Part shown: positions 22,548 through 42,856 of the stretch, piece after piece | How the letters are laid out: every line of letters starts with the position of its first letter | Numbering within the stretch: the first letter of the stretch is position 1 | Assembly (NCBI GenBank): GCA_016936435.1 | Contig: JAFGXX010000235.1 | Coordinates: 1-42,954, forward strand | Reading direction: 5' to 3' | From: Bacteroidales bacterium | Lineage (GTDB): Bacteria; Bacteroidota; Bacteroidia; Bacteroidales; VadinHA17 | DNA length: 42,954 nt | Notes under the pieces: model-generated | Told to the model about the DNA's origin: nothing | Databases searched by the model: none | What the model saw: the letters and a program-made list of their open reading frames with translations, nothing else | Made by a program: the position numbers and the translations under genes

Positions 22548-23321
22548 CTATTTTGCCCTTATAACTCCTCTTTCGGAACTCCTGATAAATTCCAGGATAT
22601 AATCTCTTTCGGGGGAAGGGCTTATTTGATTCTCCACCTCATCAAGTGCTTTGGAAAGGTTCATCCCGCTCAGGAAGAGAGCCCTGTAGATATTGTGAAT
22701 TTCGTCTATCTTCTCCTTTTCAAATCCCCTTCTTGTAAGTCCCACAGTGTTAAGTCCCATGTATGACAGCGGTTCACGGTCGGCTTTTATGAACGGGGGT
22801 ACATCCATACGTATTTTTGATCCGCCACCCACGATCACATGTGCACCTATCCTGGAAAACTGATGGACGAGAGTGCCGCCGCTGAGAATAGCCCAGTCAT
22901 CAACCCTAACTTCGCCGGCCAGTCCGGTTCCGTTTCCAATAATGCAGTAATTTCCAATCTGGCAGTCGTGGCCGACATGCGAATAAGCCATTAGCAGGCA
23001 TTTACTTCCAACTACCGTTTTACCCACTGCAGCAGTACCCCTGTTCACGGTTGCTCCTTCTCTCATAATTGTCCCGTCGCCCAGTTCGGCCGTGGTCTCT
23101 TCACCCCTGAACTTAAGGTCCTGGGGGATACCCGAAAGGACCGCTGAAGGAAAGATCCTGCATTCCCTGCCTACCCTTGCTCCGTCAAGGACAGTAGCGT
23201 TAGGACCTATCCATGTGTCATCACCAATGATAACATTTCCGGCAATATAGGAAAAGGGTTCAATAACAACATTTTTACCTATGGTGGCATCAGGGTGGAC
23301 AAAAGCTAATTCCGATATCAT
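22548..23321 (-). CDS. lpxA: acyl-ACP--UDP-N-acetylglucosamine O-acyltransferase
   Basis: ORF 257 aa hexapeptide repeats, HPDATIGKNVVIEPFSYI, GIPQDLKFRGEET, SHVGHDCQIGN, GLNTVGLTRRGF. Confidence 0.95.
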   Translation of the reverse strand: MISELAFVHPDATIGKNVVIEPFSYIAGNVIIGDDTWIGPNATVLDGARVGRECRIFPSAVLSGIPQDLKFRGEETTAELGDGTIMREGATVNRGTAAVGKTVVGSKCLLMAYSHVGHDCQIGNYCIIGNGTGLAGEVRVDDWAILSGGTLVHQFSRIGAHVIVGGGSKIRMDVPPFIKADREPLSYMGLNTVGLTRRGFEKEKIDEIHNIYRALFLSGMNLSKALDEVENQISPSPERDYILEFIRSSERGVIRAK

Positions 23322-23328
23322 TGCGATC

Positions 23329-24723
23329 CTATTTATTCTTGATTACCTGGGCCACCATTTCACCTTCTGTTACGAGATCATTCCCTACAAAGGCTTGTCC
23401 ATACATCATTACTATTCCTCTGCGAATGGGCTCTATCATTTCCATTTTAAGAATAATGGTATCGCCGGGTACTACTTTATGCTTGAATTTGAGCTTGTCA
23501 ATTTTCAGGAAGTAAGTCGAATATTTCGCGGGTTCTTCCACATCATTCAGCACCAGCAGTCCTCCGCATTGGGCAAGAGCTTCAACGATAAGCACCCCTG
23601 GCATAACCGGTTCGTCGGGGAAATGTCCCTGGAAAAATGGTTCGTTGAAGGTTACATTTTTTATTCCAACGACGGTTGTTTCGTCAAGGTGGATAACCTT
23701 ATCGACCAGGAGGAAGGGTGATCTGTGCGGCAGTTTCTTTTTTATATCCTCAAGAGTCATGACAGGTTTTATCGTCGGGTCATAAACCGGGATATTATGT
23801 TTTGAAAGAGTTTTTTTCATCTCCTGCCTCATCATCCTGGCAAGGCGGGTGTTGGCATAATGTCCGGGCCGGGTTGCAACAACCTTACCCTTAATGGGAT
23901 GGCCTACGAGTGCAAGATCACCCATAAGGTCGAGAAGCTTATGCCGGGCAGGCTCATTGGGATATCTCAGTTCAGTATTGTTGAGGATACCGGCGGTATG
24001 CTTGCTGATGCCGGGTCGGTTGAATAATTTTGCTATCCTGTCTATTTCAGCCTGTTCAACTTCGCGCTCAAGAATTACAACGGCATTATCGAGATCACCA
24101 CCTTTTATCAATCCCATTTTATTAAGAGGCTCCAGTTCATGGAAGAACACAAAAGTACGACTGTCGGCAATCTCCTCTTCAAACTCCTTCACAGTATCCA
24201 GTATGGCATACTGGTTCCCGAGTATCCTGGAATTATAGTCTATAAGGACATTTATACTGAAGTGATCATCGGGATACACAATAAGGTCGACACCATGCTC
24301 TTCGTCGGAATAGACAAGTTTTTGTTTTACGACAAAATAATTCCTCTCTTCTTTAAGTTCGGTGATCCCTGCACTTTTTATGGCATCCACAAAAGCTCTT
24401 GAAGCTCCTCCCATAATCGGTGCCTCGGGAGCATCGAGCTCTATCAGGGCATTATCGACCTGCATCCCGTGCAGTGCAGCAAGAGCATGTTCAATCGTTG
24501 AAACTGAGGCGTTGTTCTGAACCAGTGTCGTCCCTCTTGAAGTGTCGGTAACATGCTCGGCCAGTGCGTCGATTACCGGCTTCCCGGGAAGATCGGTTCT
24601 GCAAAACTTATATCCATGATTCGCAGGAGCAGGCTTGAAAGTTATTTTGACGTTTAATCCCGTATGAAGGCCTTTACCACTCAGGCTTACTTCTTTGGCC
24701 AATGTCCTTTGCTTTTCACTCAT
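23329..24723 (-). CDS. lpxC/fabZ: bifunctional UDP-3-O-acyl-N-acetylglucosamine deacetylase / 3-hydroxyacyl-ACP dehydratase (LpxC-FabZ fusion)
   Basis: ORF 464 aa: N-terminal LpxC (SLSGKGLHTGLNVKITFKPAP, STIEHALAALHGMQVDNALIELD, HKLLDLMGDLALVG) and C-terminal FabZ (LPHRSPFLLVDKV, GHFPDEPVMPGVLIVEALAQ). Confidence 0.96.
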   Translation of the reverse strand: MSEKQRTLAKEVSLSGKGLHTGLNVKITFKPAPANHGYKFCRTDLPGKPVIDALAEHVTDTSRGTTLVQNNASVSTIEHALAALHGMQVDNALIELDAPEAPIMGGASRAFVDAIKSAGITELKEERNYFVVKQKLVYSDEEHGVDLIVYPDDHFSINVLIDYNSRILGNQYAILDTVKEFEEEIADSRTFVFFHELEPLNKMGLIKGGDLDNAVVILEREVEQAEIDRIAKLFNRPGISKHTAGILNNTELRYPNEPARHKLLDLMGDLALVGHPIKGKVVATRPGHYANTRLARMMRQEMKKTLSKHNIPVYDPTIKPVMTLEDIKKKLPHRSPFLLVDKVIHLDETTVVGIKNVTFNEPFFQGHFPDEPVMPGVLIVEALAQCGGLLVLNDVEEPAKYSTYFLKIDKLKFKHKVVPGDTIILKMEMIEPIRRGIVMMYGQAFVGNDLVTEGEMVAQVIKNK

Positions 24724-24842
24724 TATCTGTTTTATCTGATTAAACCGGGTACAAAAAAAATAAAAAAAATTCGAACAAACTAAAAAATTGCCGTATAACT
24801 ATATTAATACCAGCTGATTTAGTTTAGACTATTATCTTATCA

Positions 24843-25880
24843 TTAAGGTTCTGCCTGTTTACGCAAATCTCTTTCAAGATTGTCCACCTGTACCTTAAGG
24901 TCGGGCAATTTCCTGAAAATCACTGAAGATCTCAGAAAATCCTTGTGGTCTATTGCGGGCAGGCCCAGTAGAATTGAATTATCTTTTTTTACATCTCCTG
25001 CCACTCCTGCCTTGGCACCTATTTTTGTTCCGTCGGCTATCCTCAGGTGTCCGGCTATCCCAACCTGACCTGCAAACATACAGTTCTTTCCCACCTTGGT
25101 TGAACCGGCAATTCCTGTTTGTCCGGCCATAACGGTATTTTCTCCGATCTCCACGTTATGGCCTATCTGGATAAGATTATCGAGCTTGACTCCTTTTCTG
25201 ATAATGGTGGAACCTACTGTGGCCCTGTCGATAGCGACATTTGCTCCTATCTCAACATGATCTTCAATAACGACATTCCCCAGCTGAGGAATCTTCATGA
25301 ATTCAGTCTCCGACTGAGGGGCAAATCCAAAACCGTCGCTGCCGATAACCGAGCCTGCATGAATTGTACAACCTTCACCTACGACACATTCATGATATAT
25401 GGTAACACCCGGGTTTATTGTGCAGCTCTTGCCTATCCTTGAATTATCACCTATATAAACATGTGGATATACGGAGCAGTCATCGCCTATGCTGCAGTTA
25501 TCTCCTATATATGTGTAGGCACCTATATATACATCGGCTCCTATTGTGGCTGTGGGTTCGATTACAGCCGTAGGATGTATGCCTTTTTTTCTCGGACGTG
25601 CCTGATCGACAAGCCTGAGAAGCGATGCAAAGGCATCGTATGCATTGTCGACACGTATGAGTGTGGCTTCTATCTTTGCTGAGGGAACAAATGACCGGTT
25701 CACCAGGACCACCGACGAAAGGGTGGAGTATATGTAATGCTCATATTTGGGATTTGCCAGGAACGAAAGAGCGCCCTTATGGCCTTCCTCTATCCTGGCG
25801 ATGGTGTTCACTACGGTTTCAGGATCTCCTTCAATTTCACCTTTAAGAAATCCTGCGATTGCTGATGCTTTAAATTCCAT
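24843..25880 (-). CDS. lpxD: UDP-3-O-(3-hydroxymyristoyl)glucosamine N-acyltransferase
   Basis: ORF 345 aa hexapeptide repeats with [46 protein letters not shown]. Confidence 0.95.
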
Positions 25881-27274: not shown

Positions 27275-28168
27275 ATGAAAATTGAGATCAGGGGCCTGAA
27301 TAAAATATACCCTAACGGCAACCAGGCTTTGAAAGATATTAACCTCGAACTGGAAAACGGCATGTTCGGGTTGCTCGGACCAAACGGAGCCGGGAAATCG
27401 AGTCTTATGAGAATACTTGTAACCCTTATGAAACCTTCATCGGGCGTCGTTCTTATCGACGGGAAGGATATTCAGAAACACAGGAAGGAACTTCGCAGTA
27501 TTCTCGGTTATCTCCCGCAGGATTTCAGATTTTTCTCAGCGCTGAAAACATGGGAATTTCTCGATTACTCAGGCTCTCTTGCAGGCCTCAGGAACAGAAG
27601 GGAGAGGCTTGCCGAGGTCGACAGGCTCCTCGACCAGGTCGGACTGCTGGAAGTACGTGACCGTAAGGCCAACCGACTGTCGGGCGGAATGAAAAGAAGG
27701 CTCGGTATTGCACAGGCCCTCATCGGAAACCCCCGGATAATAGTTGTGGACGAACCGACAACAGGGCTCGACCCCGATGAAAGGATAAGATTCAGAAATA
27801 TCCTTTCTCAACTGAGCCAGAATGACGTGATAATAATACTTTCGACACATATCGTCGGCGACATATCATCAACCTGTCAGAGCATGGCTCTCCTTAACAG
27901 GGGAGAACTTGTATTTAACGGGCCTCCCGAAGATCTTATCAGGCATGCTGAAGGACATGTCTTCAGAATGAACCTGACTCCCTATGAGTACGACAAGGTA
28001 AAGGAAGAATACAATGTAATATCAACCATACCCGTGGATACAGGCTGGGAGGTGCAGGTAGTATCGGATCACATCCCCGGATATGATAACGTCCTGGTGA
28101 CTCCGAATATCGAACACGCATACGTGTACTATATGGAGCATAAACTGCATGCCGACCTTATAGAATAA
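27275..28168 (+). CDS. ABC transporter ATP-binding protein
   Basis: ORF 297 aa: GLLGPNGAGKSS (Walker A), LSGGMKRRLGIAQ (signature), IIVVDEPTTGLDP (Walker B), ILSTHIVGD (H-loop); C-terminal HAEGHVFRMNLTPYEYD extension. Confidence 0.96.
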   Translation: MKIEIRGLNKIYPNGNQALKDINLELENGMFGLLGPNGAGKSSLMRILVTLMKPSSGVVLIDGKDIQKHRKELRSILGYLPQDFRFFSALKTWEFLDYSGSLAGLRNRRERLAEVDRLLDQVGLLEVRDRKANRLSGGMKRRLGIAQALIGNPRIIVVDEPTTGLDPDERIRFRNILSQLSQNDVIIILSTHIVGDISSTCQSMALLNRGELVFNGPPEDLIRHAEGHVFRMNLTPYEYDKVKEEYNVISTIPVDTGWEVQVVSDHIPGYDNVLVTPNIEHAYVYYMEHKLHADLIE

Positions 28169-28181
28169 GCAACTTACAATC

Positions 28182-31100
28182 ATGACACTCATTCACAATA
28201 TCAGAACGGTGGCCGGGTACGAGGCCACAACCCTGCGAAGAAGCTGGTTTTTCAGGCTCTTCTCAATAAGCGCTCTCGCCATCTTCACCGGGATGAACAT
28301 AGGCATCTTCTCACCTGTGGGTGACGAAGACTGGTCTCTGGTATCATTCACTTCATCGATTCCACATATAAATTTATATCTCCTCAATATTGCACAGTCG
28401 ATAGTTGTGATCTTTCTCGCTGCCGACTTCCTTAAAAGGGATAAGAAGGTAGATACCAACGAGGTACTGTATACAAGGTCGGTGTCGAATTTCGAATATG
28501 TAATGGGCAAAACCTTCGGGATCCTCAGGCTTTTCCTTGGACTCGATATCCTTATCCTGCTTATAGGCCTGGTGATAAACATCATCTCGAAAAGAATGAG
28601 CATTGATCTGATGGCATATCTGTGGTATCTGATAATAATCTGCGTGCCCACGATCATCTTCAGTCTCGGACTTGCATTTATGCTCATGTCTGTTATCAGG
28701 AACCAGGCGATTACTTTTCTTCTTCTCCTGGGCCTGGCTGCTACAAATATGTTCTGGCTGTGGTTTCGCTTCGGTTTTTTATTCGATTATATGGCTTTCG
28801 GCCTTCCTGTTTTCAGATCTGAGGTGGCCGGATTCGGCAATCCGGAACTTATCCTCAATCAGAGATTATTGTATTTCTCTCTTGGGATGATGCTTGTAAT
28901 GGCTACGATCCTGCTCTTTAAGCGTCTTCCCCAGTCGCGCTTACACATGACCATAGCATGGACTTTCCTGGTCATTTTTTCCTTATTAGCCGGAGTATGT
29001 GGATTCAACACATGGAATCTGTATCATAAAGACATTATTTCGAAAAACCTTGTCGTTGAAACAAACAGACAATTTGAGGAAAAAGCCGTTGCAAGTCTTA
29101 TTTCAGCTTTTATTGAATTCCGTCATTTCGGAGATTCCTACGAGGCTGACGCGAAAATAGTATTCGTTAATGACACAAAAGAAGATCTTACTTCCTATAT
29201 ATTTTCGCTAAACCCGGGGCTCACTGTTTCAAAAATAACATCAAAGGAGGGGGATGTTAGTTTTAAAAGGATAAATCATATCATTCAGGTCGACCCTTCA
29301 TATGCCCTCTCGCCGGGCTTCAGCGACAGCCTTACGATATTATATTCAGGTACTATCGACGAATCGTTCTGTTATCCCGACTATATCGAAAATGAAAAGG
29401 AATCACCCTACAGGATCGCTATGGTGAACGTGGATAAGCGGCAGGCCTTCCTCAGCGACAAATATGTGCTCCTCACGCCCGAATCACACTGGTACCCTGT
29501 TCCGGCTCTCAATTATTACCCTTCAAATCCTGCAAGAATAAAAGTTGACTATACTGATTTTACACTTCGCGTCAAATCGGCTACAGGCCTTCAACCGGTG
29601 GCACAGGGGATAAGGACAAACACAGACGGTACTTATCTTTTTACTCCGGAGAAACCACTTACAGGGCTGACACTGGCCATGGGAAATTATCTCTCAGATA
29701 CACTGATTGTCGATTCGCTGAAATTCATCTCCTGGTATTTCCCCGGAAACGATTACTATAAAAAAGACCTGTCGGAACTCAGGGATACGTTAAACCTCCT
29801 GGTAAGGGGTATTATGAGGGAACTTGAAACGAATTTTTCAACAAAGTATCCTTTCCCTACATTCAACCTTGTAGAAGTTCCCGTTCATTTCTATTCTTTC
29901 CCCAGAATGAGCACTCAGACAAGAGCTGAGCTTCAGCCATCTATGGCCCTGCTGCCTGAAAAATTGTCCACTCTTCAGAATGCCGGATTCGGAAAACAGT
30001 TTACCCGACAGAAAAAACGGATGGAAAGGAGTAACCAGGTAATCACCGACAAGGAACTACAGGTAAGACTCTTCAATAATTTCGTACGTAACACCTTCCT
30101 TAACGGCACAAATTTCAGGATCCGGAACGGACAGGCGTTAAACGAACCAACAAGGTATATGCTGGGTCCGAGTTACTATTTCTTCAGAAATAACTTCTAT
30201 TCAACTGAATACCCTGTTATTAACGCCGTTTTCGAATCGCATCTGCAAAAGATAAGCCAACCCGGGCCGGGAGGAGGCGTAAGGGCGATGGCAGGCGGTC
30301 TCTCAGACATTGACAGGGCTAATCTGATACTCAGGCAAGCCAGCTTCAGGGATGTCCTGGCAATGAACCCCGGAAGCGATACTATCAGTGCGGTACTGAC
30401 CGTTAAGGGTGACTATCTCTTCAACCTGCTGCGCGGGAGGGCGGGCATTGAAAAATTCAATGCGTGGTTCAGGAAATATATAGAAGATAATGAATTCAAA
30501 AGGATCGACATTGCTGAAATGAATGAAGAAATAAGCAAAGAGTTCGGATTTGAATTCTATCCATATCTTGACGACTGGTTTAATATTAAAGAACAGCCGG
30601 GATTCATTTTTGAGAAACCTGTCGCCAATGAAATAATTGTCGGCGACAGGGTAAGATATCTTATCACTTTCGTTGTCTCCAATCCTGAAAAGGTGGCGGG
30701 GATGTTCAATGTTGCATTCCGAACGGGAGGACCAGGAGGAGGCCGTGGAGGTGGTCAGATGATGACCGGTGCTTTCCGGGGCGGACCCGGAGGGGGAGGA
30801 AGGGTGGCAGTTACAATATCGATGCAGGGACGGGGAATGGAAGCTTCCGATATTTCCAGGATAGTTGAGGTAGCACCGGGACAGGCAAAACAGATAGGTA
30901 TCATACTCGACGCTCAGCCAAGGGCAATGATGATAAACACTCTTTTTTCACAGAACATCCCCGGAGAAATTAATATTCCCATCACTGAAATAAAAAAATC
31001 AAGGATCGGACCGGAAAACTTTGAGGATAGTGAAACAGAAGTGACTGTACCTTCACGGAATATGAAGGGAGAAATTATCGTTGACAATGAGGATCCCGGA

Positions 31101-31664
31101 TTCGACATGGGAAATAACATCACCGAAGTTCCCCTCAAAAGGATACTGGGAATAAAGAACAGACGACAGGAAGGGTATCAGCAGATCAACATGTTCTGGG
31201 CCCCGGACTTCTGGCAGCCGGTAGTGCAATCGACATACTATGGAAAATATATTCTTTCATCTGTATATACACGTGCCGGAACAGGAGACAAATCTGTTAC
31301 ATGGAAAGCAAAAATCGAGGATCCAGGATACTATGACGTCTATTGCTACATCGGAAAACAAACGGGAGGAAGAGTTATGGTCGGAGTTCAGCGGGCAGGA
31401 CAGAGAGGAGCTCAGGGAGGACCGCCGGCAGGAGGCCCCGACGCAGGAGCTCAGGCTGAACCTCCTTACAAGGATATGCACTACCGGATCTATCACGATG
31501 AGGGAGTTGAAGAGATAACGGTGGATTTTGAAAATGCCGAGGGAGGATGGAACAAACTGGGACAGTATTATCTTTCTCCCGATACTGCAATAGTTGAGCT
31601 TACAAACCAGTCATCCGGAAGGATCGTCCTGGGAGATGCAATAAGGTGGGTTAAAATTAACTGA
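28182..31664 (+). CDS. ABC transporter permease fused to a degenerate M1-aminopeptidase-like extracytoplasmic region and a C-terminal golvesin-like domain
   Basis: ORF 1160 aa: N-terminal hydrophobic permease (about 7 TM segments); M1-like central region (FNLVEVPVHFYSFPRMSTQTRAELQPSMALLP) with no HE dipeptide anywhere, hence no HEXXH; C-terminal YRIYHDEGVEEITVDFENAEGGWNKLGQYYL...GDAIRWVKI. Confidence 0.8.
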   Translation: MTLIHNIRTVAGYEATTLRRSWFFRLFSISALAIFTGMNIGIFSPVGDEDWSLVSFTSSIPHINLYLLNIAQSIVVIFLAADFLKRDKKVDTNEVLYTRSVSNFEYVMGKTFGILRLFLGLDILILLIGLVINIISKRMSIDLMAYLWYLIIICVPTIIFSLGLAFMLMSVIRNQAITFLLLLGLAATNMFWLWFRFGFLFDYMAFGLPVFRSEVAGFGNPELILNQRLLYFSLGMMLVMATILLFKRLPQSRLHMTIAWTFLVIFSLLAGVCGFNTWNLYHKDIISKNLVVETNRQFEEKAVASLISAFIEFRHFGDSYEADAKIVFVNDTKEDLTSYIFSLNPGLTVSKITSKEGDVSFKRINHIIQVDPSYALSPGFSDSLTILYSGTIDESFCYPDYIENEKESPYRIAMVNVDKRQAFLSDKYVLLTPESHWYPVPALNYYPSNPARIKVDYTDFTLRVKSATGLQPVAQGIRTNTDGTYLFTPEKPLTGLTLAMGNYLSDTLIVDSLKFISWYFPGNDYYKKDLSELRDTLNLLVRGIMRELETNFSTKYPFPTFNLVEVPVHFYSFPRMSTQTRAELQPSMALLPEKLSTLQNAGFGKQFTRQKKRMERSNQVITDKELQVRLFNNFVRNTFLNGTNFRIRNGQALNEPTRYMLGPSYYFFRNNFYSTEYPVINAVFESHLQKISQPGPGGGVRAMAGGLSDIDRANLILRQASFRDVLAMNPGSDTISAVLTVKGDYLFNLLRGRAGIEKFNAWFRKYIEDNEFKRIDIAEMNEEISKEFGFEFYPYLDDWFNIKEQPGFIFEKPVANEIIVGDRVRYLITFVVSNPEKVAGMFNVAFRTGGPGGGRGGGQMMTGAFRGGPGGGGRVAVTISMQGRGMEASDISRIVEVAPGQAKQIGIILDAQPRAMMINTLFSQNIPGEINIPITEIKKSRIGPENFEDSETEVTVPSRNMKGEIIVDNEDPGFDMGNNITEVPLKRILGIKNRRQEGYQQINMFWAPDFWQPVVQSTYYGKYILSSVYTRAGTGDKSVTWKAKIEDPGYYDVYCYIGKQTGGRVMVGVQRAGQRGAQGGPPAGGPDAGAQAEPPYKDMHYRIYHDEGVEEITVDFENAEGGWNKLGQYYLSPDTAIVELTNQSSGRIVLGDAIRWVKIN
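30722..30808 (+). repeat. Gly-rich low-complexity coding segment in the permease/M1-like fusion
   Basis: Encodes RTGGPGGGRGGGQMMTGAFRGGPGGGGRV. Confidence 0.85.
31195..31661 (+). other. Golvesin/Xly CBD-like C-terminal domain of the permease fusion (approximate bounds)
   Basis: KIEDPGYYDVYCYIG...HYRIYHDEGVEEITVDFENAEGGWNKLGQYYLSPDTAIVELTNQSSGRIVLGDAIRWV resembles golvesin-type domains. Confidence 0.6.
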
Positions 31665-31675
31665 ATGATATCAAT

Positions 31676-33160
31676 ATGAATAAACTATTCAAAAAATGGA
31701 ACAGACCAATAATTGTCTGTTTAATGATAACGGCAAACCTGCTCAGTGCCTATTCCCAAAAGGCACTTACTCTCGAAGAGGCTCTGCAGATAGCGGAAAA
31801 CAACAGTCCTTCAATGAAAAGAACCAGGCTGAATCTTGTCCGGAGCAGGGAAAACCTGAATGCCCAGAACGCAGCTCTCAAATCACAGTTCTCACTGTCG
31901 GTGAACCCTATCCTCTACAACCAGAACCGTGAATTCAACGACCTGATATCTGAATGGAACTCAACAAGGAGCGTGGAGAGTTTTGGCAATTTCACCATAG
32001 CCCAGCCAATAGTGTTCACCGATGCAGTTCTGTCGCTGACAAACCGTTTCGGATACAAGGATTCATACAGTGAATATACCGACAAAACAACAAAAGGGTT
32101 CAGTAACAGGCTGTCGTTGAACCTCGATCAGCCTCTTTTCACATACAACAGGACGAAGCTGCAGCTCAGGGAGCTTCAACTGGCCCTGGAAAATGCACAG
32201 CTTAACTATGCAATACAGTTGCTGTCTCTTGAGAAAAGTGTGACACAGGCTTTCTACTATGTTTACCAGCAGCAGCAAAGCATGGAGATTTCCAACCAGG
32301 CTTTCCAGAATATGCAAAAGAGCTACGAAGTGTCAAAGGGCAAGGTTGAAGCGGGAATATCAGCACGCGAAGAGATGTTCCAGGCAGAGCTCAACCTTGC
32401 ATCCTCCAGATCGGAATATGAAAACAGCCAGGTATCATTCGAAAACGCCAAGGATGAATTCAAGTTGCTGATAGGAATGAGCCTATACGATGATTTTGCT
32501 GTTCTTCCAAATATTGAAGTTGACACCGTTCAGGTCGACATCGCTTTTGCAATCGACAAGGGACTGGCAAACAGGATGGAACTGAGGCAGAGCCAGATCT
32601 CCATAGAAACATCACAGTTCGACCTTATCCAGACAAAAGCAATGAATGAATTCAAGGGTAGCCTCGGCCTTTCTGTCGGTCTCTTCGGCGATAACGAGAA
32701 GTTCGGAAACGTGTACGAAAGTCCCACCGACAATGAAAGCGTGTCACTTTCGCTTAGCATTCCTCTCTGGGACTGGGGAGAGCGAAAATCAAGGATAAAG
32801 GCAACCGAAGCCAATATTGAATCGGCAAATATTTCATACGAAGAGGAAGAGAATAATATAATACTGGGTATCAGAAAAGTATACAGGAACCTTATAAACC
32901 TGCAGAACCAGATCGAGATCGCAAGACAGAATGTTGTCAATGCCCAGCTTACCTACGACCTCAACCTTGAAAAATATAAAAACGGAGACCTTACTGGCAT
33001 GGATCTCAATATATATCAGAACCAGCTTTCGGAGAAACAACTTTCCTATACCAACTCACTAATTTCCTACAAACTGGAACTGCTGAACCTCAAAATTCAG
33101 ACACTTTACGATTTTGAGACAAAATCGCAGGTAACCCCGGTTAAATCACTTGAAGAATAG
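31676..33160 (+). CDS. TolC family outer membrane efflux protein
   Basis: ORF 494 aa with signal peptide, ALTLEEALQIAENNSPSMKRTRLNL, coiled-coil repeats, SIPLWDWGERKSRIKATEANIE. Confidence 0.94.
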   Translation: MNKLFKKWNRPIIVCLMITANLLSAYSQKALTLEEALQIAENNSPSMKRTRLNLVRSRENLNAQNAALKSQFSLSVNPILYNQNREFNDLISEWNSTRSVESFGNFTIAQPIVFTDAVLSLTNRFGYKDSYSEYTDKTTKGFSNRLSLNLDQPLFTYNRTKLQLRELQLALENAQLNYAIQLLSLEKSVTQAFYYVYQQQQSMEISNQAFQNMQKSYEVSKGKVEAGISAREEMFQAELNLASSRSEYENSQVSFENAKDEFKLLIGMSLYDDFAVLPNIEVDTVQVDIAFAIDKGLANRMELRQSQISIETSQFDLIQTKAMNEFKGSLGLSVGLFGDNEKFGNVYESPTDNESVSLSLSIPLWDWGERKSRIKATEANIESANISYEEEENNIILGIRKVYRNLINLQNQIEIARQNVVNAQLTYDLNLEKYKNGDLTGMDLNIYQNQLSEKQLSYTNSLISYKLELLNLKIQTLYDFETKSQVTPVKSLEE

Positions 33161-33173
33161 AAAATATCAGAAT

Positions 33174-34226
33174 ATGAAAAAGAGAATTATACTATCAATT
33201 GCATTAATAACTGCAATAATGTCCTGCAGAAACCAGGATCAGAATCTTACAGCTGATGTTGAAATACCTGTAACTGTCGAGGATCTTAAGCCCCGGTCGA
33301 TAGAAGAATTTGTAAACACAACCGGCACTGCCTTCCCAAAGGGAGAGATCGAGCTTAAATCGAAAATTCCGGCTGCATATTTCCTCGAGCTTAATCCGCA
33401 GACCGGAAGGCTCTGGCAGCTTGGCGACAGGATCAGGACAGGTATGGTAATAGCCCGGCTCGAAGACGAAGAGTATGTAAACTCGGTAAAAATGGAAACA
33501 AACCAGCTTAACATGGAGCTGATGGAAACGGAGCTGAGGAAGCAGGAATCACTATATGAAAAGGGAGGCGTAACACTTAAAGAGCTCAAGACTGCCGGAA
33601 TAAACTATGAAAATGCTAAAACCACAGTCGCCAATTCCAGACTTCAGCTTCAGAAAACAAGGATCGTGGCACCTATCGACGGCGTAATTGTCGAACTCCC
33701 CTACTACACCCAGGGAACTGAAGTGGCATCAGGAGTCACAATAGCCAAAATAATGGACTACAAGACAATGTATATGGATGTCCAGCTTCCCGAAAAGTAT
33801 ATTACTGTTATAAAACCGGGGCAGAAAGTCAACCTTACTAACTACACTATTCCCAACGACACCATAATAGGCAACATAACCCAGCTTTCTCCTGCCATCG
33901 ACCCTGATACCAGAACATTCAGGGGAACAATAGCTGTCGACAACAAAGAATACCTCCTGCGGCCCGGAATGTTTGTAAAAGCCGATATCATAACCGCAAG
34001 AAAAGACTCGGCCATAGTTATACCGAAGAGTATTATCCTGTCAAGACAGAGAGGCAAGACAGTTTTCACTGTCGACCGGGGGATTGCTGTTGAAAAGGTA
34101 ATACTTACAGGCCTTGAAAACCTGACCGAAGTGGAAGTAACCAGAGGCCTTGTAAAAGACGAACGTATTGTAACAAGCGGATTCGAGACTCTGAGTAACA
34201 GGTCGAAGGTCAAAATCATCAGATAA
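33174..34226 (+). CDS. efflux RND transporter periplasmic adaptor subunit (lipoprotein)
   Basis: MKKRIILSIALITAIMSC lipoprotein signal from ATG 33174 (track start 33150 is less likely); RLQLQKTRIVAPIDGVIVELPYYTQGTEVASGVTIAKIMD; beta-barrel domain. Confidence 0.93.
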   Translation: MKKRIILSIALITAIMSCRNQDQNLTADVEIPVTVEDLKPRSIEEFVNTTGTAFPKGEIELKSKIPAAYFLELNPQTGRLWQLGDRIRTGMVIARLEDEEYVNSVKMETNQLNMELMETELRKQESLYEKGGVTLKELKTAGINYENAKTTVANSRLQLQKTRIVAPIDGVIVELPYYTQGTEVASGVTIAKIMDYKTMYMDVQLPEKYITVIKPGQKVNLTNYTIPNDTIIGNITQLSPAIDPDTRTFRGTIAVDNKEYLLRPGMFVKADIITARKDSAIVIPKSIILSRQRGKTVFTVDRGIAVEKVILTGLENLTEVEVTRGLVKDERIVTSGFETLSNRSKVKIIR

Positions 34227-34233
34227 AACTTTT

Positions 34234-37200
34234 ATGAACGCCATTGCACGATTTGCAGTTAAATATCCGGTAACGATCCTGATGCTTGTTCTGGGTATAG
34301 TCCTTCTCGGGTTTATTTCTTTCGGGAAGCTTGGAACAGACCTCTTTCCCGATCTGAACAACCCGAAGATTTATGTTGAGCTTTCTGCCGGGGAAAAACC
34401 ACCGGAGGAGATCGAAAAGAACTATGTCGACCAGATTGAGTCTCTCGCCATGCGACAGAACAGCGTAACACAGGTTTCATCGGTTTCACGTGCCGGTTCG
34501 GCAAGCATAACCGTCGAATACAGCTGGAACAAGGATATGGACGAAGCATTCCTCGATCTTCAGAAAGAATTAAACTCATTCAGTCAGAACTCTGACCTTG
34601 AGGAATTTACAATTTCACAATACGATCCGAATGCTACTCCTGTGATGATCGTCGGCCTTAAAAATGAACGGATAACAAATATGGAAGAACTCCGGAAGGT
34701 GGCCGAAAATTACATCCGCAACGAGCTGGTAAGAATAGAAGGTGTAGCCGACGTAAGGATCATTGGCAGGGAAGAAAGTGAGGTTGTGGTAGAGACCAAC
34801 AGGTACATGCTTGAATCTTTCGGACTTACTGCCGACGGAATAGCCTCACAGATAAGCAATTATAACCGTAATGTGTCGGGCGGATCCATCGTCGAAATGG
34901 GAACCAGATATGTCGTGAAAGGAGTAAGTGTGCTTCAGGACCTTTCGGATCTTGAGAATATCATAGTCGGTTTCAAACAGCCATCATCTTCAACCTCATC
35001 TGCTGCAGCATCATCAGCTGCATCGGCAGCCACATCGGAAAGGATACCCGTTTACCTCAGGGATGTTGCTAAAGTCAGCTTCATCAACAAAGACCCTGAG
35101 AATATTGTTACAATAAACGGAGAGAGATGTATTAGTCTGGCTGTATACAAAGAACCCAAGTACAATACCGTCGATGCGGTTAAAAGCCTGGAGGAGGCAA
35201 TAGCCACAATGACACGTGCTTTGCCGGGTTATGAATTCATTAAGGTTCTCGATCAGGGAAAATATATCGACAATGCCATCGGTGAGGTAAAAAACACTCT
35301 GCTGCTTGGCATCCTGCTGGCGGTATTCGTGTTATACATCTTCCTCCGACGACTCGGGACCACCCTTGTTATAAGTATAGCCATACCGGTATCGATAATA
35401 GCGACATTCAACCTGATGTACTTCAATAATCTCACCCTCAACATTATGACTCTGGGAGGACTTGCCCTTGGAGCAGGTATGCTTGTCGACAATGCTATTG
35501 TGGTACTGGAAAACATAACAAGGTATCGCGAAGAAGGAATGAACCTGCAGGAAGCTGTGATAAAAGGGACCGGGCAGGTAGGCGGAGCGATAGTGGCAGC
35601 CACCATTACAACTATCGTCGTCTTTCTTCCGATCGTTTATCTTCAGGGAGCATCAGGTGAATTGTTCCGTGACCAGGCCTGGACAGTTGCCTTTTCGCTC
35701 CTTTCATCGCTGCTGGTAGCCCTGCTTGTTATTCCCATGCTTGTTTCTGTATTTTTCGCCGGAAATAGTGAAAAGGGAAAGCTGACAGCTCCGATACGTT
35801 TTAACTGGTATACAAGGATCCTTGAAAAAGTTATTGATAAAAGGAACCTGGTAATCCTGGGCGCTGTGATCCTCCTGGCCGGAACTGCACTGCTTGTTCC
35901 CGGTCTGGGAAGTGAATTTATGCCGAGATCGGAGTCGGCTGAATTCACAGTAGAACTAAGGCTCCCTGAAGGAACCAGCCTGGAAAGGACATTCGGAACA
36001 GCTGTAAAGACAGAAGAGATAATCAGAGAGCTGATGGGAGAAAAAATCTTTCTCATTTACAGCCAGTCAGGTGAAGACAACACCTCTTCATCAGGCCAGA
36101 CAGAATCGGCAAGGGGTGAAAATACGGCGTCTCTCAAGGTAATTCTGAAAAATGAATTCGCCGGTGAAACTGAAAATGCAATTACCATGATACAGAGTTA
36201 CCTGAAAGAGGTCCCGGACCTCGAGGTGACATTTTCGAGGGAAGAGAGCGCTTTGCAGGCATCACTGGGAACAAGCGGATCGCCATTTGCCCTTGAAATT
36301 GCAGGAGAAGATTACACTGAGCTTGAGAATATCCTTAAACAGGCCCGTTCCATACTTGAAAATAACAAGGGACTATATAACTTTACCACATCGATGGATG
36401 AAGGCACACCCGAAGTGGAGGTCTCTATCGACCGGTTCAGGACAAGCTATTACGGTGCTTCGGTTGAAAACATAGTATCACAGATAAGAAGTTACCTCCA
36501 GGGTTCCTCAGCAGGAAATTTTGATAAAGACGGTGAACTCAAGGACATCACAATAAGTCTCGGTGATATCTCACTAAGCCAGCTTAACGACCTGATGATA
36601 ACTGCAGGAAATGTCAGGGTACCTCTGAGCGAACTGGCGACAATACAGAAAGTAGTGACTCCCCGTGAAATCACCAGGCGAAACCAGTCACGCACAAGTT
36701 ACGTCTACGCAATGGTCTCACCCGGAACAGCATTCGACAGAGTTGTAAAAGATGCCGGTGAATCCCTTAAAGTGATAAGCCTGCCTCCCGATTACAAGAT
36801 GACATTCACAGGGGAAGAGATTAAAAGAAAAGAATCAACTTCAAATCTCACCTTTGCACTTATACTCTCACTTGTGCTGGTATTCATGGTCCTTGCTGCA
36901 CAGTTTGAATCCGTCATCCAGCCTTTTATTATAATGCTTACCATTCCTCTTGCAGGAGTAGGTACTATTCTTACTTTCTTCCTGCTCGGGAAACCGCTGA
37001 ATATGATGGCATATATCGGAATAATAATGTTGGGCGGAATAGCTGTCAACAATGCAATAATATATATTGACAGGATAAATCAGCTCCGGGAATCAGGCAT
37101 GAACAAAAGAGAAGCCGTTATTGCAGCAGGATCACAACGTATCAGACCTATCCTGATGACAAGTCTCACAACCATACTGGCGCTTCTGCCCCTTACTCTG

Positions 37201-37374
37201 GGGATCGGGGAAAGCGCTTCACTGAGATCGCCGATGGCACTCGCTGTAATAGGAGGTCTCTTCTCATCAACCCTTCTCACACTGATAATTATACCTTCAG
37301 TTTACTGGGTTCTTGATTCTTTCAGCGCTTACCTGAGAGGAATAGGTAAACCGGTTTCTGAACCTGTCAAATAA
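34234..37374 (+). CDS. efflux RND transporter permease subunit
   Basis: ORF 1046 aa: FPDLNNPKIYVEL, TM4 GGLALGAGMLVDNAIVVLENI, TM10 GGIAVNNAIIYIDRINQLRESG, RIRPILMTSLTTILALLPL. Confidence 0.96.
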   Translation: MNAIARFAVKYPVTILMLVLGIVLLGFISFGKLGTDLFPDLNNPKIYVELSAGEKPPEEIEKNYVDQIESLAMRQNSVTQVSSVSRAGSASITVEYSWNKDMDEAFLDLQKELNSFSQNSDLEEFTISQYDPNATPVMIVGLKNERITNMEELRKVAENYIRNELVRIEGVADVRIIGREESEVVVETNRYMLESFGLTADGIASQISNYNRNVSGGSIVEMGTRYVVKGVSVLQDLSDLENIIVGFKQPSSSTSSAAASSAASAATSERIPVYLRDVAKVSFINKDPENIVTINGERCISLAVYKEPKYNTVDAVKSLEEAIATMTRALPGYEFIKVLDQGKYIDNAIGEVKNTLLLGILLAVFVLYIFLRRLGTTLVISIAIPVSIIATFNLMYFNNLTLNIMTLGGLALGAGMLVDNAIVVLENITRYREEGMNLQEAVIKGTGQVGGAIVAATITTIVVFLPIVYLQGASGELFRDQAWTVAFSLLSSLLVALLVIPMLVSVFFAGNSEKGKLTAPIRFNWYTRILEKVIDKRNLVILGAVILLAGTALLVPGLGSEFMPRSESAEFTVELRLPEGTSLERTFGTAVKTEEIIRELMGEKIFLIYSQSGEDNTSSSGQTESARGENTASLKVILKNEFAGETENAITMIQSYLKEVPDLEVTFSREESALQASLGTSGSPFALEIAGEDYTELENILKQARSILENNKGLYNFTTSMDEGTPEVEVSIDRFRTSYYGASVENIVSQIRSYLQGSSAGNFDKDGELKDITISLGDISLSQLNDLMITAGNVRVPLSELATIQKVVTPREITRRNQSRTSYVYAMVSPGTAFDRVVKDAGESLKVISLPPDYKMTFTGEEIKRKESTSNLTFALILSLVLVFMVLAAQFESVIQPFIIMLTIPLAGVGTILTFFLLGKPLNMMAYIGIIMLGGIAVNNAIIYIDRINQLRESGMNKREAVIAAGSQRIRPILMTSLTTILALLPLTLGIGESASLRSPMALAVIGGLFSSTLLTLIIIPSVYWVLDSFSAYLRGIGKPVSEPVK
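34984..35037 (+). repeat. Ser/Ala/Thr-rich low-complexity insertion in RND porter domain
   Basis: Encodes SSSTSSAAASSAASAATS immediately before ERIPVYLRDVAKV. Confidence 0.85.
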
Positions 37375-37388
37375 TTAACAAGGCAAGA

Positions 37389-40300
37389 ATGGATTTCATT
37401 TTAAAGAGAAGGATCCTGATCAGCATGCTCTTCCTGGGGCTGTCAATGCTTGGCTATATATCCTACAAAAACCTGTCAATGGAGCTGATACCCAATTTCC
37501 AGCTGCCGGGTATGATCGTGCAGGTAGGCACCATGCTTGAAACAGATCCTTCCTATATTGAATCGCAGGCTGTTATACCGATCGAAGGAGCTATCGGAAC
37601 ACTGGATAATGTAGAAAAGATAGAATCAAATATCACCTCACGTTATGGCACAATAACGATTTATTTCACCCAGAATGCCGATCTGAAATATGCAAATCTC
37701 AAACTACAGGAAAAAATAGACATAGTAAGAGGTTCCATCCCCGACGACTTTATTATCAACGTGATAAAGGTAGACCTCGAACAAATGACAAACCAGTTCA
37801 TGTCGTTGCAGATAAGAGGAGAAGGAGGCGTCGACAGAATACGCAATATAGCGGACCGTGAGATAAAGCCTAAATTTGAGAACATCGACGGCATTGCAGG
37901 AGTACAGGTCTATGGCGGACAGGAAAACTCAATAGAAGTCCGGCTCGACGAGAAAGCCTGCGAGGCTATCGGAATAACTCCTAATCAGATAAGCAGTCTG
38001 CTCAACAACAATGGCAGGGATAAAACTTTTGCAGGAAAAGTTGTAGATGGAAACAATGAATATTTCGTAAATGTTACTTCCGAATATACCGACGTTCGTG
38101 AAATAGGAAGCATCATTGTAAAAAAGCAGGGTCCTATTCTCCTGAGGGACATAGCTGAAATTTTCTACGGTGTCAAGGAAGAAACTTCCTACAGCAGGGT
38201 GAATGGTATGGACGCCGTCACCATGAACCTTGTGAATGATAACCAGGCAAACCTTATTCAGCTTTCACACGACGCTCTCGACGAGGTGAACAGGATCAAC
38301 AGGGATCTTGCTGCTAAAGGAATTGAAATAGCCGTACAGTATAACAGTGCGGAAACAATGGAGAAAAATATCGACCAGATAATAAACCTGGCAATAACAG
38401 GCGCTGTTCTCGCCGTTCTTATCCTGTGGTTTTTCCTCCGTAACATTAAACTTGTCACTGTCATTGCAGTCTCTATACCCGTCTCTGTTTATATTGCATT
38501 CAACTTCTTCTATGCCAGGGACATATCACTAAACAGTCTAACCCTGGTAGGTATAGCCCTTGCTATCGGGATGCTGGTCGACAATTCGGTAGTGGTTCTC
38601 GAGAATATTTATCGACTATCGGGGACAGGGAAGGATTATACCTCCTCGGTCAAACAGGGAACAAGGGAGGTATGGAAAGCTATTTTCGCCGCCACCCTTA
38701 CAACAACGGCTGTTTTCCTGCCCTTTCTTTTTACTTCAAATTTTCTGGTTAAGATCATCGGGGAAAACATCGGGGTCTCTATAATTTCAACACTACTTGT
38801 TTCTCTATGTGTGGCTCTTATCTTTATTCCAATGGCAACAAACTTCCTGCTGTCAGGTCAGTCGGGAGGTAATACGGAAATATTCAAAAGACTGTCAATA
38901 CACGACAGGCTGATCCAGATATACTACATGGTGCTGAAAGCCAGCATGAGGAAACCTGCCACCACGATACTTGGAACCCTGACTCTTTTTTTCGCTGCCC
39001 TTCTGATAAGCCTTACCGTGAGTCTGAGCACTACCCAGGAGATCAACACTCCCGATTTCAGGCTCAGTGTCACGATGCCCACGGGATCTACTCTCGAAAA
39101 AACCGACGCAGTAGTGACCGAAATTGAGTCACGGCTCGAATCACTGGCTGAAAAGGAGGACCTTACAAGCCGTATCGAGGAAGAACAGGCGACGGTAACC
39201 ATCAGTCTGAAGGAAAACTGGGACAAAGAAAGCAAGAGAAGCCTTCCTGAAATAAAAAATGATATTTCCGAAAGGATCAAAAATATCAGCACTGCTGAGA
39301 TCAGCATGGATGATGTCTCAACAAGCGGAGGATTCACAGGAGGAGGAAGCGGAATGGAAACGGTAAATCCCGGAGAAGGTTTTATGAACATGCTGGGTAT
39401 TGGCTCATCTTCCGAAAGTGTGCTCATAAAAGGTCAGAATTTCGACGAAATGAAAAACCTGGCCGACGATATAGAAACATATATCGATGAACTCACAACC
39501 ATAGAACGTGTTAACGTTAATGTTCAGGATAATAAGCCGGAGGTACAGCTTCACTTCGATATGGACTATATTGGTCGCAACAATTTCACCCTCATGAATC
39601 TTGCGTCGTCGCTGAATTCTTTCGGACGGGAATATTCTTCAGGGGCAACCTTCAAACAGGGTGCCGAATCGTACGACATAATAATAAAATATGCAACAGC
39701 CGACTCACTGGAAGAAGAAAATACCGAAAAAACAATAGACGACCTGAAAAAGCTTGAAGTCAGCAACGCTTCAGGCGCTGTGATGGAGATGGAGGAACTG
39801 GCAGGAATTATCTTTTCTTATGGCATGGGTAACATCCACAGGGAAAATCAGGAAAAAAGGGTAACAGTAACATATAGTTTCACCGACGAGATCAAGTCTT
39901 CAAAGGACCTTCTTGAAGGAGCACGGGCAGAGATACAGTCAATAGTTAACGGAATGAATATCCCTGCAGGCATTGCAGTGGAGGTAATTCAGGAGGAAGA
40001 TCAGTTTACCGAGTTTTACAAGCTTATCGGTATAGCTTTCCTGCTTATCTACATGATCCTGGCAGCAGTTTTTGAATCACTTACCCTGCCGTTTGTTCTC
40101 CTGTTCAGCATACCACTTGCGGCCCTGGGTGCACTTATCGGACTTATTCTTACCGGTAATTCGCTTATAAACGCCAATACCCTTATGGGACTTCTTATCC
40201 TGCTGGGTGTAGTCGTAAATAATGGTATCATCCTCATTGACTATACAAATATCCTCCGCAAAAGGGGCTTCCGGAGGTCAAGAGCACTGATGACGGCCGG

Positions 40301-42128
40301 CGTTGCCAGGATCAGGCCGATTATGATCACAGCCCTCACCACCATTGTTGCAATGTTACCCCTGGCCATGGGCAAAGCAGAATATGTGTCAGTTATCGGG
40401 GCTTCGTTCGCAATTACGGTTATCGGAGGTTTGTCGCTGAGCACCCTGCTGACTTTGATCTTTATTCCTACATTCTATTCGGGCCTTGAAAATGCACTGG
40501 AATGGTTCAAATCACTGGGCTGGCGAAACAGGATCATACAAATGGCGATATTTGCGCTTATAATATTCCTGATATACACTTCTGTCGATAAATTCATCTG
40601 GAAGCTTATCACAACAATCCTCGCCATTGTCCTTGTCCCTGCTTCAACATGGTTCATTATGAACAGCCTCCGGAAAGCCAGGGAGACAGTGATTTCAGCC
40701 AACGAATCCGTTAATATACGAATTCAAAGCCTTGTCAAAATATATGAAAGGGAAAACCGATGGTCGAGGGAATGGAAAGCAGGAGCCCTGATACGTGAGA
40801 AACTGGGACTTAACACTCATTACAGGACATGGAGCGATATGATCGACGTTGCCTGGGAATTGCCGGTGTTTGGATTCCTGATCTACTTTACTTATTTCTA
40901 TCTGCACAAGGGCTTATGGATATTTCTCTTCAGCATCGGATGCTGGTTCTTCATTTCAGCAATATGGATGCAGTTAAGGGAACTCTTTACCGAAATGACC
41001 CGGGACGGAAAATCACGGCTTCTTAAGAAAATAATTCCTGTTGCCGATTTCATTGTATTCTGGATAATCCCGCTGCTGAATCTTGTCTTTTTCCAGCTTA
41101 AATGGGACAATATTGTGGTAGTACTGATACTTGCTGTTGTGTGGTTCGCAGCTCTATTTATTTATACAACGGGGCAGAAACTCAACAGGGAAAATATCGA
41201 CATCTACAGACTGGAGGGAAGGTTCAGGGGCCTGAGAAAAACCATATACAAAATTGTCGCAGCAGTGCCACTAATAGGTAAAAGGAAAAAACCTTTCAAG
41301 GCACTCAGTTGTGTAAGTATGGACATCGGCAATGGTATGTTTGGTTTGCTCGGACCAAACGGAGCGGGCAAGACAACCCTTATGAGGATAATCTGCGGAA
41401 TTCTCGAACAAAGTTACGGCAAGGTATGGATCAACGGGCTTGACACCCAGGAAAAGAGGGAAGAGCTCCAGGGACTTATCGGATACCTTCCCCAGGAATT
41501 CGGAAGCTACGAAAACATGACAGCACATGAATACCTCCATTACCAGGCAATGCTCAAGAACATCATCGATGCAAAGGCACGTGAGGAAAGAGTTACCTAT
41601 GTGCTGCAGGCTGTTCACATGGAAGACCGCCGTCACGAAAAGATAAGCTCATACTCCGGAGGAATGAAACAGAGGATGGGGATAGCCCAGATATTACTCC
41701 ATCTTCCAAGGATACTGGTCGTTGATGAACCCACTGCCGGCCTGGATCCCCGCGAAAGGATAAGATTCAGAAATCTGCTTGTGGAGCTGAGCCGCGAAAG
41801 AGTGGTAATTTTTTCAACCCATATTATTGAAGATATCTCCAGTTCGTGTAACCAGGTTGCGGTATTGAATAAGGGAAGCCTGAAATACCTCGGTAAGCCT
41901 GTCGACATGACACATGAAGCTGAAGGCCATGTATGGCAGTTTAACATCCCGGCCGGCGAATTCAACGACTTTGTTAAAGAACACCTTGTAGTTCATCACA
42001 TGACCGAAGGGGGCTTCGTAAGAGTAAGGGTTATCTCCGAAATGAAACCTCACATAAATGCAAAAGCAGCTTTACCCAATCTTGAGGATGCCTATCTGTG
42101 GCTGCTGAGAAAAAAAACAACAACCTAA
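37389..42128 (+). CDS. RND efflux permease fused via about six extra TM helices to a C-terminal ABC ATPase domain
   Basis: Single uninterrupted ORF, 1579 aa. RND part (residues about 1-1035): IPNFQLPGMIVQV, GIALAIGMLVDNSVVVLENI, LLGVVVNNGIILIDYTNILRKRG, RIRPIMITALTTIVAMLPLAMG. ABC part (from about residue 1300): GLLGPNGAGKTTLMR, YSGGMKQRMGIAQ, ILVVDEPTAGLDP, IFSTHIIED. Confidence 0.93.
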   Translation: MDFILKRRILISMLFLGLSMLGYISYKNLSMELIPNFQLPGMIVQVGTMLETDPSYIESQAVIPIEGAIGTLDNVEKIESNITSRYGTITIYFTQNADLKYANLKLQEKIDIVRGSIPDDFIINVIKVDLEQMTNQFMSLQIRGEGGVDRIRNIADREIKPKFENIDGIAGVQVYGGQENSIEVRLDEKACEAIGITPNQISSLLNNNGRDKTFAGKVVDGNNEYFVNVTSEYTDVREIGSIIVKKQGPILLRDIAEIFYGVKEETSYSRVNGMDAVTMNLVNDNQANLIQLSHDALDEVNRINRDLAAKGIEIAVQYNSAETMEKNIDQIINLAITGAVLAVLILWFFLRNIKLVTVIAVSIPVSVYIAFNFFYARDISLNSLTLVGIALAIGMLVDNSVVVLENIYRLSGTGKDYTSSVKQGTREVWKAIFAATLTTTAVFLPFLFTSNFLVKIIGENIGVSIISTLLVSLCVALIFIPMATNFLLSGQSGGNTEIFKRLSIHDRLIQIYYMVLKASMRKPATTILGTLTLFFAALLISLTVSLSTTQEINTPDFRLSVTMPTGSTLEKTDAVVTEIESRLESLAEKEDLTSRIEEEQATVTISLKENWDKESKRSLPEIKNDISERIKNISTAEISMDDVSTSGGFTGGGSGMETVNPGEGFMNMLGIGSSSESVLIKGQNFDEMKNLADDIETYIDELTTIERVNVNVQDNKPEVQLHFDMDYIGRNNFTLMNLASSLNSFGREYSSGATFKQGAESYDIIIKYATADSLEEENTEKTIDDLKKLEVSNASGAVMEMEELAGIIFSYGMGNIHRENQEKRVTVTYSFTDEIKSSKDLLEGARAEIQSIVNGMNIPAGIAVEVIQEEDQFTEFYKLIGIAFLLIYMILAAVFESLTLPFVLLFSIPLAALGALIGLILTGNSLINANTLMGLLILLGVVVNNGIILIDYTNILRKRGFRRSRALMTAGVARIRPIMITALTTIVAMLPLAMGKAEYVSVIGASFAITVIGGLSLSTLLTLIFIPTFYSGLENALEWFKSLGWRNRIIQMAIFALIIFLIYTSVDKFIWKLITTILAIVLVPASTWFIMNSLRKARETVISANESVNIRIQSLVKIYERENRWSREWKAGALIREKLGLNTHYRTWSDMIDVAWELPVFGFLIYFTYFYLHKGLWIFLFSIGCWFFISAIWMQLRELFTEMTRDGKSRLLKKIIPVADFIVFWIIPLLNLVFFQLKWDNIVVVLILAVVWFAALFIYTTGQKLNRENIDIYRLEGRFRGLRKTIYKIVAAVPLIGKRKKPFKALSCVSMDIGNGMFGLLGPNGAGKTTLMRIICGILEQSYGKVWINGLDTQEKREELQGLIGYLPQEFGSYENMTAHEYLHYQAMLKNIIDAKAREERVTYVLQAVHMEDRRHEKISSYSGGMKQRMGIAQILLHLPRILVVDEPTAGLDPRERIRFRNLLVELSRERVVIFSTHIIEDISSSCNQVAVLNKGSLKYLGKPVDMTHEAEGHVWQFNIPAGEFNDFVKEHLVVHHMTEGGFVRVRVISEMKPHINAKAALPNLEDAYLWLLRKKTTT
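41289..42128 (+). other. ABC ATPase domain of the RND-ABC fusion
   Basis: Walker A at about residues 1322-1329, signature YSGGMKQ, Walker B VVDEPTAGLD, H-loop STHIIED all intact. Confidence 0.95.
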
Positions 42129-42139
42129 GCTGCTGAGAT

Positions 42140-42856
42140 ATGAGAAGCAACAAATTATACAGCTACTTCATCCTGGTTCGTAAAATGATCGTTTATAATC
42201 TCAAGATCATTTTCGCAAACAAATTTATCTGGTTCCTGGCAGGTTCCCTGGCTTTCTACATAGGACTCTCGCTTATACATGTTTTTTCGACGAACGTTTC
42301 AAGGATGCAGGATCTGTACGGGATATTCATATTTTCAGGCATTCTCCTGGTCTTCTACCCCTCAGTCTTCGGTATCCAGAATGACCAGGACGCAAGAACA
42401 ATTGAGATCCTTTTCGGCATCCCGAACTACAGATATAAAGTATGGCTGGTAAGACTCATCCTGATCTTCATCATTACTTTTTTAATTATGTTCCTGTTCA
42501 CATTCCTGTCGTCGGTGCTGATAGTAAAATTCCGATCCGGCATAATGACTGCCCAGGTTATGGTACCGGTCATATTCCTCGGGATGATGGCCTTCATGCT
42601 TTCGACTGCGATCAGGAACGGAAACGGTACAGCCGTAGTGATGATCATTTTCGGGATCTTCTTCATGATCCTCGAGGATCCTCTCAGAAAAAGCCAGTGG
42701 AATGTGTTCCTCAATCCTTTCGAACCTGCCTATGATGTGAATGAAACAACCTGGGCCCTGATAACCATGAAAAACAGGATCATACTTCTTACCGGAACAT
42801 TGATCTTCCTGCTTGCGGGTCTTTTCAACCTTCAGAAAAGAGAGAAATTCATGTAG
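42140..42856 (+). CDS. ABC-2-like transporter permease (short, about 6 TM)
   Basis: ORF 238 aa, hydrophobic; IQNDQDARTIEILFGIPNYRYKVWLVRLILIFIITFLIMFLFTFLSSVL typical of ABC-2 membrane proteins; 12 nt downstream of the RND-ABC fusion. Confidence 0.75.
   Translation: MRSNKLYSYFILVRKMIVYNLKIIFANKFIWFLAGSLAFYIGLSLIHVFSTNVSRMQDLYGIFIFSGILLVFYPSVFGIQNDQDARTIEILFGIPNYRYKVWLVRLILIFIITFLIMFLFTFLSSVLIVKFRSGIMTAQVMVPVIFLGMMAFMLSTAIRNGNGTAVVMIIFGIFFMILEDPLRKSQWNVFLNPFEPAYDVNETTWALITMKNRIILLTGTLIFLLAGLFNLQKREKFM

Follow-up and report, generated by a model that had tools for sequence, protein, structure and literature searches.

The window analysed here is the whole 42,954-nucleotide stretch of contig JAFGXX010000235.1 (positions 1 to 42,954, forward strand) from a Bacteroidales bacterium of the GTDB lineage VadinHA17 (assembly GCA_016936435.1). 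Towards its 3′ end lie seven genes on the forward strand, which encode components of ABC and RND transporters. The second gene joins a permease to a region resembling M1 aminopeptidases. The genes and their main features are as follows:

27275-28168, forward strand: ABC ATPase, 297 aa (Pfam ABC_tran, E = 4e-32)
28182-31664, forward strand: half ABC permease, M1-like region (very probably a pseudo-peptidase), beta domain and Golvesin_C-like domain in one protein of 1160 aa, ATG start
28182-29081, forward strand: ABC-2-like half permease, residues 1-300, about 7 transmembrane (TM) helices (hydropathy, profile match)
29082-30596, forward strand: M1-fold region, residues 301-805, with an N-terminal beta domain and a degenerate catalytic domain (hhalign, Foldseek)
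30051-30065, forward strand: KELQV, residues 624-628, counterpart of HEXXH (profile alignment)
30222-30236, forward strand: NAVFE, residues 681-685, counterpart of NEGFA (profile alignment)
30597-31031, forward strand: beta-rich domain, residues 806-950, with a Gly-rich loop predicted to be disordered (AlphaFold model)
31059-31661, forward strand: Golvesin_C-like beta domain, residues 960-1160 (Pfam PF25275, E = 9.4e-14)
31676-33160, forward strand: TolC-type outer membrane efflux protein (Pfam OEP, E = 1.5e-45)
33150-34226, forward strand: RND periplasmic adaptor (MFP; TIGR01730, E = 5e-55)
34234-37374, forward strand: RND permease 1 (ACR_tran, E = 8e-224)
37389-42128, forward strand: RND permease 2, multi-TM linker and C-terminal ABC ATPase in one protein of 1579 aa (ACR_tran, E = 6e-163; ABC_tran, E = 4.5e-28)
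41274-41933, forward strand: ABC ATPase domain of the RND fusion, approximately residues 1296-1515 (Pfam, motifs intact)
42140-42856, forward strand: second half ABC permease, 238 aa (profile match to the first half of the permease/M1 fusions described below)

The locus thus encodes a TolC-type protein, an adaptor and RND permeases together, as expected of a tripartite RND system. The ATPase at 27275-28168 has intact Walker A, signature, Walker B and H-loop motifs, which are also found in 8 of 8 orthologues; the same four motifs are retained by both ATPases of the locus in all orthologues checked.

We searched almost 700 genomes belonging to the same phylum and order for homologues of the 28182-31664 protein. 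Strong homologues were found in 42 of the 295 genomes of the order, and three closer ones (64-69% identity) came from MAGs on GTDB contigs. A total of 38 sequences were aligned as a family. Gene content and gene order turned out to be conserved across families and classes: of 10 loci fetched from relatives, 7 contain all seven genes in the same order and the other three are cut by contig ends. Among 37 relatives, an ATPase homologue lies directly upstream in 35 and a TolC gene downstream in 35, the exceptions being short or truncated loci. The RND-ABC fusion is present in seven other fetched loci (1556-1576 aa), and its linker was detected in 37 of the 42 genomes with a strong match to the 28182-31664 protein compared to only 3 of the 253 without one (Fisher p value = 5e-38 across the 295 genomes of the order). 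We considered the multi-TM linker as a further ABC permease and rejected this assignment after profile comparisons, with E-values of 0.07-0.3 against both halves of the permease/M1 fusions and both permeases of the locus. A search of the open-access literature with narrow terms found no description of the 28182-31664 protein or of an RND-ABC hybrid, which is weak evidence of novelty.

On the opposite strand, upstream of the locus (22548-25880, reverse strand), are genes which we take, from their sequence and family knowledge, to encode LpxA, an LpxC/FabZ fusion and an LpxD-like protein. They are also found near the locus in the three closest relatives and were not seen around more distant ones. 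The hint at a lipid substrate given by this neighbourhood is not relied on here, as it is limited to those three.

Next we examined the 28182-31664 protein, for which an earlier first-pass annotation, made from the sequence alone, had proposed an N-terminal ABC-type permease followed by an extracytoplasmic region with the layout of M1 aminopeptidases. Both assignments hold. The N-terminal part shows about seven hydrophobic helices by hydropathy and adjoins the ABC ATPase gene, as expected of an ABC-2-type permease. The Pfam model ABC2_membrane_2 is matched by 29 of the 38 family members and by the 28182-31664 protein itself only weakly (E = 0.013, below the cut-off). Given this number of helices, the C-terminal part, including the M1 region, would sit in the periplasm. 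The four-part layout is common to the whole 38-member alignment, and the C-terminal Golvesin_C domain (PF25275), which the first-pass annotation had not described, is matched in 37 of 38 members. Two Gly-rich, low-confidence loops (residues 848-890 in the beta domain and 1061-1092 within the Golvesin_C-like domain) vary widely in length across the family and are very long in one relative; residues 850-890 of the AlphaFold model have a pLDDT below 50.

Direct searches with the 28182-31664 protein were of little help for the M1 region. The Pfam Peptidase_M1 model does not match this protein, the NCBIfam search returned no family, and a single-sequence search of solved structures gave nothing meaningful, so that profile and fold searches were needed. 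Comparing the family profile of residues 284-830 with a profile of 16 standalone M1 proteins that carry HEXXH and come from the same order, hhalign aligned 414 columns over both M1 domains (98.6%, E = 7.6e-16). Peptidase_M1 is matched by 20 of the 38 family members (best E = 1.3e-6). AlphaFold modelled the whole protein with a pLDDT of 80 and a pTM of 0.77, and the M1 region alone with 84 and 0.84, respectively. When these models were compared with the PDB using Foldseek, M1 enzymes made up all the matches listed for the whole protein (best E = 4.7e-16) and for the M1 region (best E = 7.4e-18), at moderate TM-scores of 0.44-0.50 by query and up to 0.56 by target. The predicted fold, an N-terminal beta domain followed by a catalytic domain, is that of ERAP1, IRAP, LTA4H and the two-domain M1 enzyme of Deinococcus (6kp1). 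Based on profile comparison, Pfam matches in the family and predicted structures, we consider the M1 homology of residues ~301-805 to be firm.

Unlike those four enzymes, the 28182-31664 protein lacks the zinc ligands, the catalytic Tyr and GAMEN, and it has an insertion between the zinc motifs. As pointed out in the first-pass annotation, there is no HE dipeptide among the 1160 residues; H..E, H...H, HH and HEXXH are absent from the protein as well. With 11 His and 62 Glu, however, HE is also missing from 54% of 2000 composition-preserving shuffles, so that its absence says little until the sequence is aligned with M1 enzymes. In that alignment the canonical site is indeed lost, and it is lost across the family. 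HEXXH, replaced by KELQV, is found nowhere in the sequence of any of the 38 homologues; its first His is retained in none of them and its second in one. NEGFA is replaced by NAVFE, in which the zinc-ligand Glu has become Ala682 (Glu in 0 of 38). The catalytic Tyr of Y-x-K-G corresponds to Thr740, with Tyr in only one member. GAMEN has no counterpart in the 28182-31664 protein, where residue 582, which aligns with its Glu, is Ala; this column is Glu or Asp in 30 of 38 members, in a part where the alignment is uncertain. By profile alignment, an insertion of ~35 residues has lengthened the usual spacing of the two zinc motifs from 18 to ~53 residues; the assignment of the pseudo-active-site residues rests on this alignment, at ~14% identity. 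We also rejected a pseudogene or frameshift as the reason why the motif is missing, since the reading frame is uninterrupted and all family members share the loss.

Some relics of the active site are still recognizable. The catalytic-Glu column of HEXXH is still acidic (Glu or Asp) in 36 of 38 members, the Asn of NEGFA is retained in 36 of 38, and K-G of Y-x-K-G is retained in most; these relics are consistent with an active enzyme as the ancestor. Six residues of the M1 region (N344, E434, W437, Y438, E565 and E593) are invariant across the 38 sequences. One could therefore imagine that the domain is still an enzyme, using non-zinc or non-HEXXH chemistry based on other conserved residues such as E434, E565 and E593, a reading to which the acidic catalytic-Glu position also lends itself. 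We consider it extremely improbable: the loss extends to the His, zinc-Glu and Tyr positions alike, and the counterpart of E593 in M1 sequences is a Glu that lies outside the metal site, so that E593 may be conserved for structural reasons. The alignment also contains no invariant His or Cys column, the best His column being residue 523 (27 of 38, Asn in the 28182-31664 protein). No alternative metal site, which the first-pass annotation had named as a possible objection to its reading, is thus suggested.

We conclude that the M1 domain is almost certainly a pseudo-peptidase, in agreement with the first-pass annotation: an M1 fold is present, its zinc site is lost family-wide and, as described below, comparison fusions retain HEXXH. 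The same genome contains three further M1 genes, each encoding HEXXH, so that probable active M1 peptidases are kept elsewhere in the organism.

A dead domain may simply act as a rigid spacer or scaffold that binds no ligand itself and sets the height of the Golvesin_C-like domain in the periplasm. The near-universal Golvesin_C domain and the low identity of the M1 region (24-32% outside the closest relatives) would agree with such a role, whereas the six invariant residues seem more than a spacer needs, and we regard this explanation as very improbable. Repurposing of the dead domain for the binding of a substrate or partner, as proposed in the first-pass annotation, is plausible from the sequence data. 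TAF2 of TFIID, a eukaryotic transcription factor from an unrelated setting, is an M1-like protein that is not known to act as a peptidase and would show that an M1 fold can serve in binding instead of catalysis.

The first-pass annotation had also expected ABC-permease/M1 fusions of Bacteroidota to carry HEXXH, and all 20 fusions that we fetched do, although they were retrieved with a HEXXH-bearing query and do not represent an unbiased count. Like the 28182-31664 protein, these fusions have an ABC-2-like permease followed by an M1 region, adjoin an ABC ATPase gene of the same kind and match it at the profile level. In contrast to its single permease half, they carry two halves per chain, seen as ~13 hydrophobic helices ahead of the M1 region. 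The four HEXXH-bearing loci checked all have the ABC ATPase gene directly before the fusion and nothing else of the set; no homologues of the RND genes were found near them. The permease of the 28182-31664 protein matches the second fusion half better (E = 7e-18) than the first (E = 4e-8), while the 238-aa permease at 42140-42856 matches the first half better (E = 1.6e-5) than the second (E = 0.008). As the two permeases match opposite halves, the ABC system of the window looks like the same transporter with its halves encoded separately.

The conserved operon, also absent from the first-pass annotation, is the more unusual part of our findings. Similar to RND systems of the MdtABC-TolC type, it encodes an adaptor, two RND permeases and TolC together. 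Unlike them, it carries an ABC ATPase on one of the RND permeases, two ABC half permeases and a further ATPase. The combined explanation that we favour, and consider likely, is a hybrid ABC-RND exporter in which the dead M1 domain either binds the substrate or links the components. It is less secure than the pseudo-peptidase assignment because we infer both the formation of a physical complex and the role of the dead domain; export as the direction of transport is likewise a proposal.

According to this model, the 28182-31664 protein would be one half of a heterodimeric ABC-2-type permease and the 42140-42856 protein the other, the former carrying in the periplasm the catalytically dead M1 domain followed by the Golvesin_C-like domain. 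The two half permeases would be driven by the two ATPases: the ATPase at 27275-28168 would pair with the 28182-31664 protein, and the C-terminal ATPase domain of the 1579-aa fusion with the 238-aa permease. The two ATPases could instead form separate homodimers rather than one heterodimer. The RND-ABC fusion would covalently tie the ABC unit to the RND/adaptor/TolC pump. Instead of cutting peptides, the dead M1 domain would most likely capture the substrate coming from the ABC unit or dock onto the adaptor/RND complex; a periplasmic position would be the right compartment to take the substrate and hand it on.

Alternatively, the M1 domain may be a pseudo-peptidase within two separate machines, an ABC transporter and an RND pump that share their regulation and perhaps TolC, in which case it would act within the ABC transporter only, for example as a gate or lid. 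Each set is complete enough to act alone, and the HEXXH-bearing relatives have no adjoining RND genes. Nevertheless, in eight loci, that of the window among them, one RND permease and an ABC ATPase form a single polypeptide, an arrangement difficult to account for without physical coupling, and the conservation of gene content and order across families and classes also argues against separate machines. We therefore regard this alternative as unlikely.

The favoured hybrid exporter can be taken one step further. Tentatively, and with somewhat more doubt than confidence, we propose that one exporter spans the envelope and draws its energy from both ATP and the proton gradient, with a heterodimeric ABC transporter covalently joined to an RND trimer and the dead M1 domain serving as the periplasmic hand-over point. 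The RND proteins MdtBC form a 2:1 heterotrimer. If the RND pair of the window did the same, each trimer would carry a single fused ATPase, giving one ABC unit per pump.

ABC exporters and RND pumps are regarded as separate energy systems that have only TolC and adaptors in common. A conserved RND-ABC fusion beside split ABC permeases would make the mechanical coupling of both systems directly testable. In addition, the dead M1 domain and its HEXXH-bearing relatives would offer a before-and-after view of a processing enzyme turning into a binding module.

Finally, both RND proteins of the window (34234-37374 and 37389-42128) have VDN instead of VDD in TM4 and NN in TM10, at a position where AcrB has its relay Lys. 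Judging from these residues, their proton relay may differ from that of AcrB.
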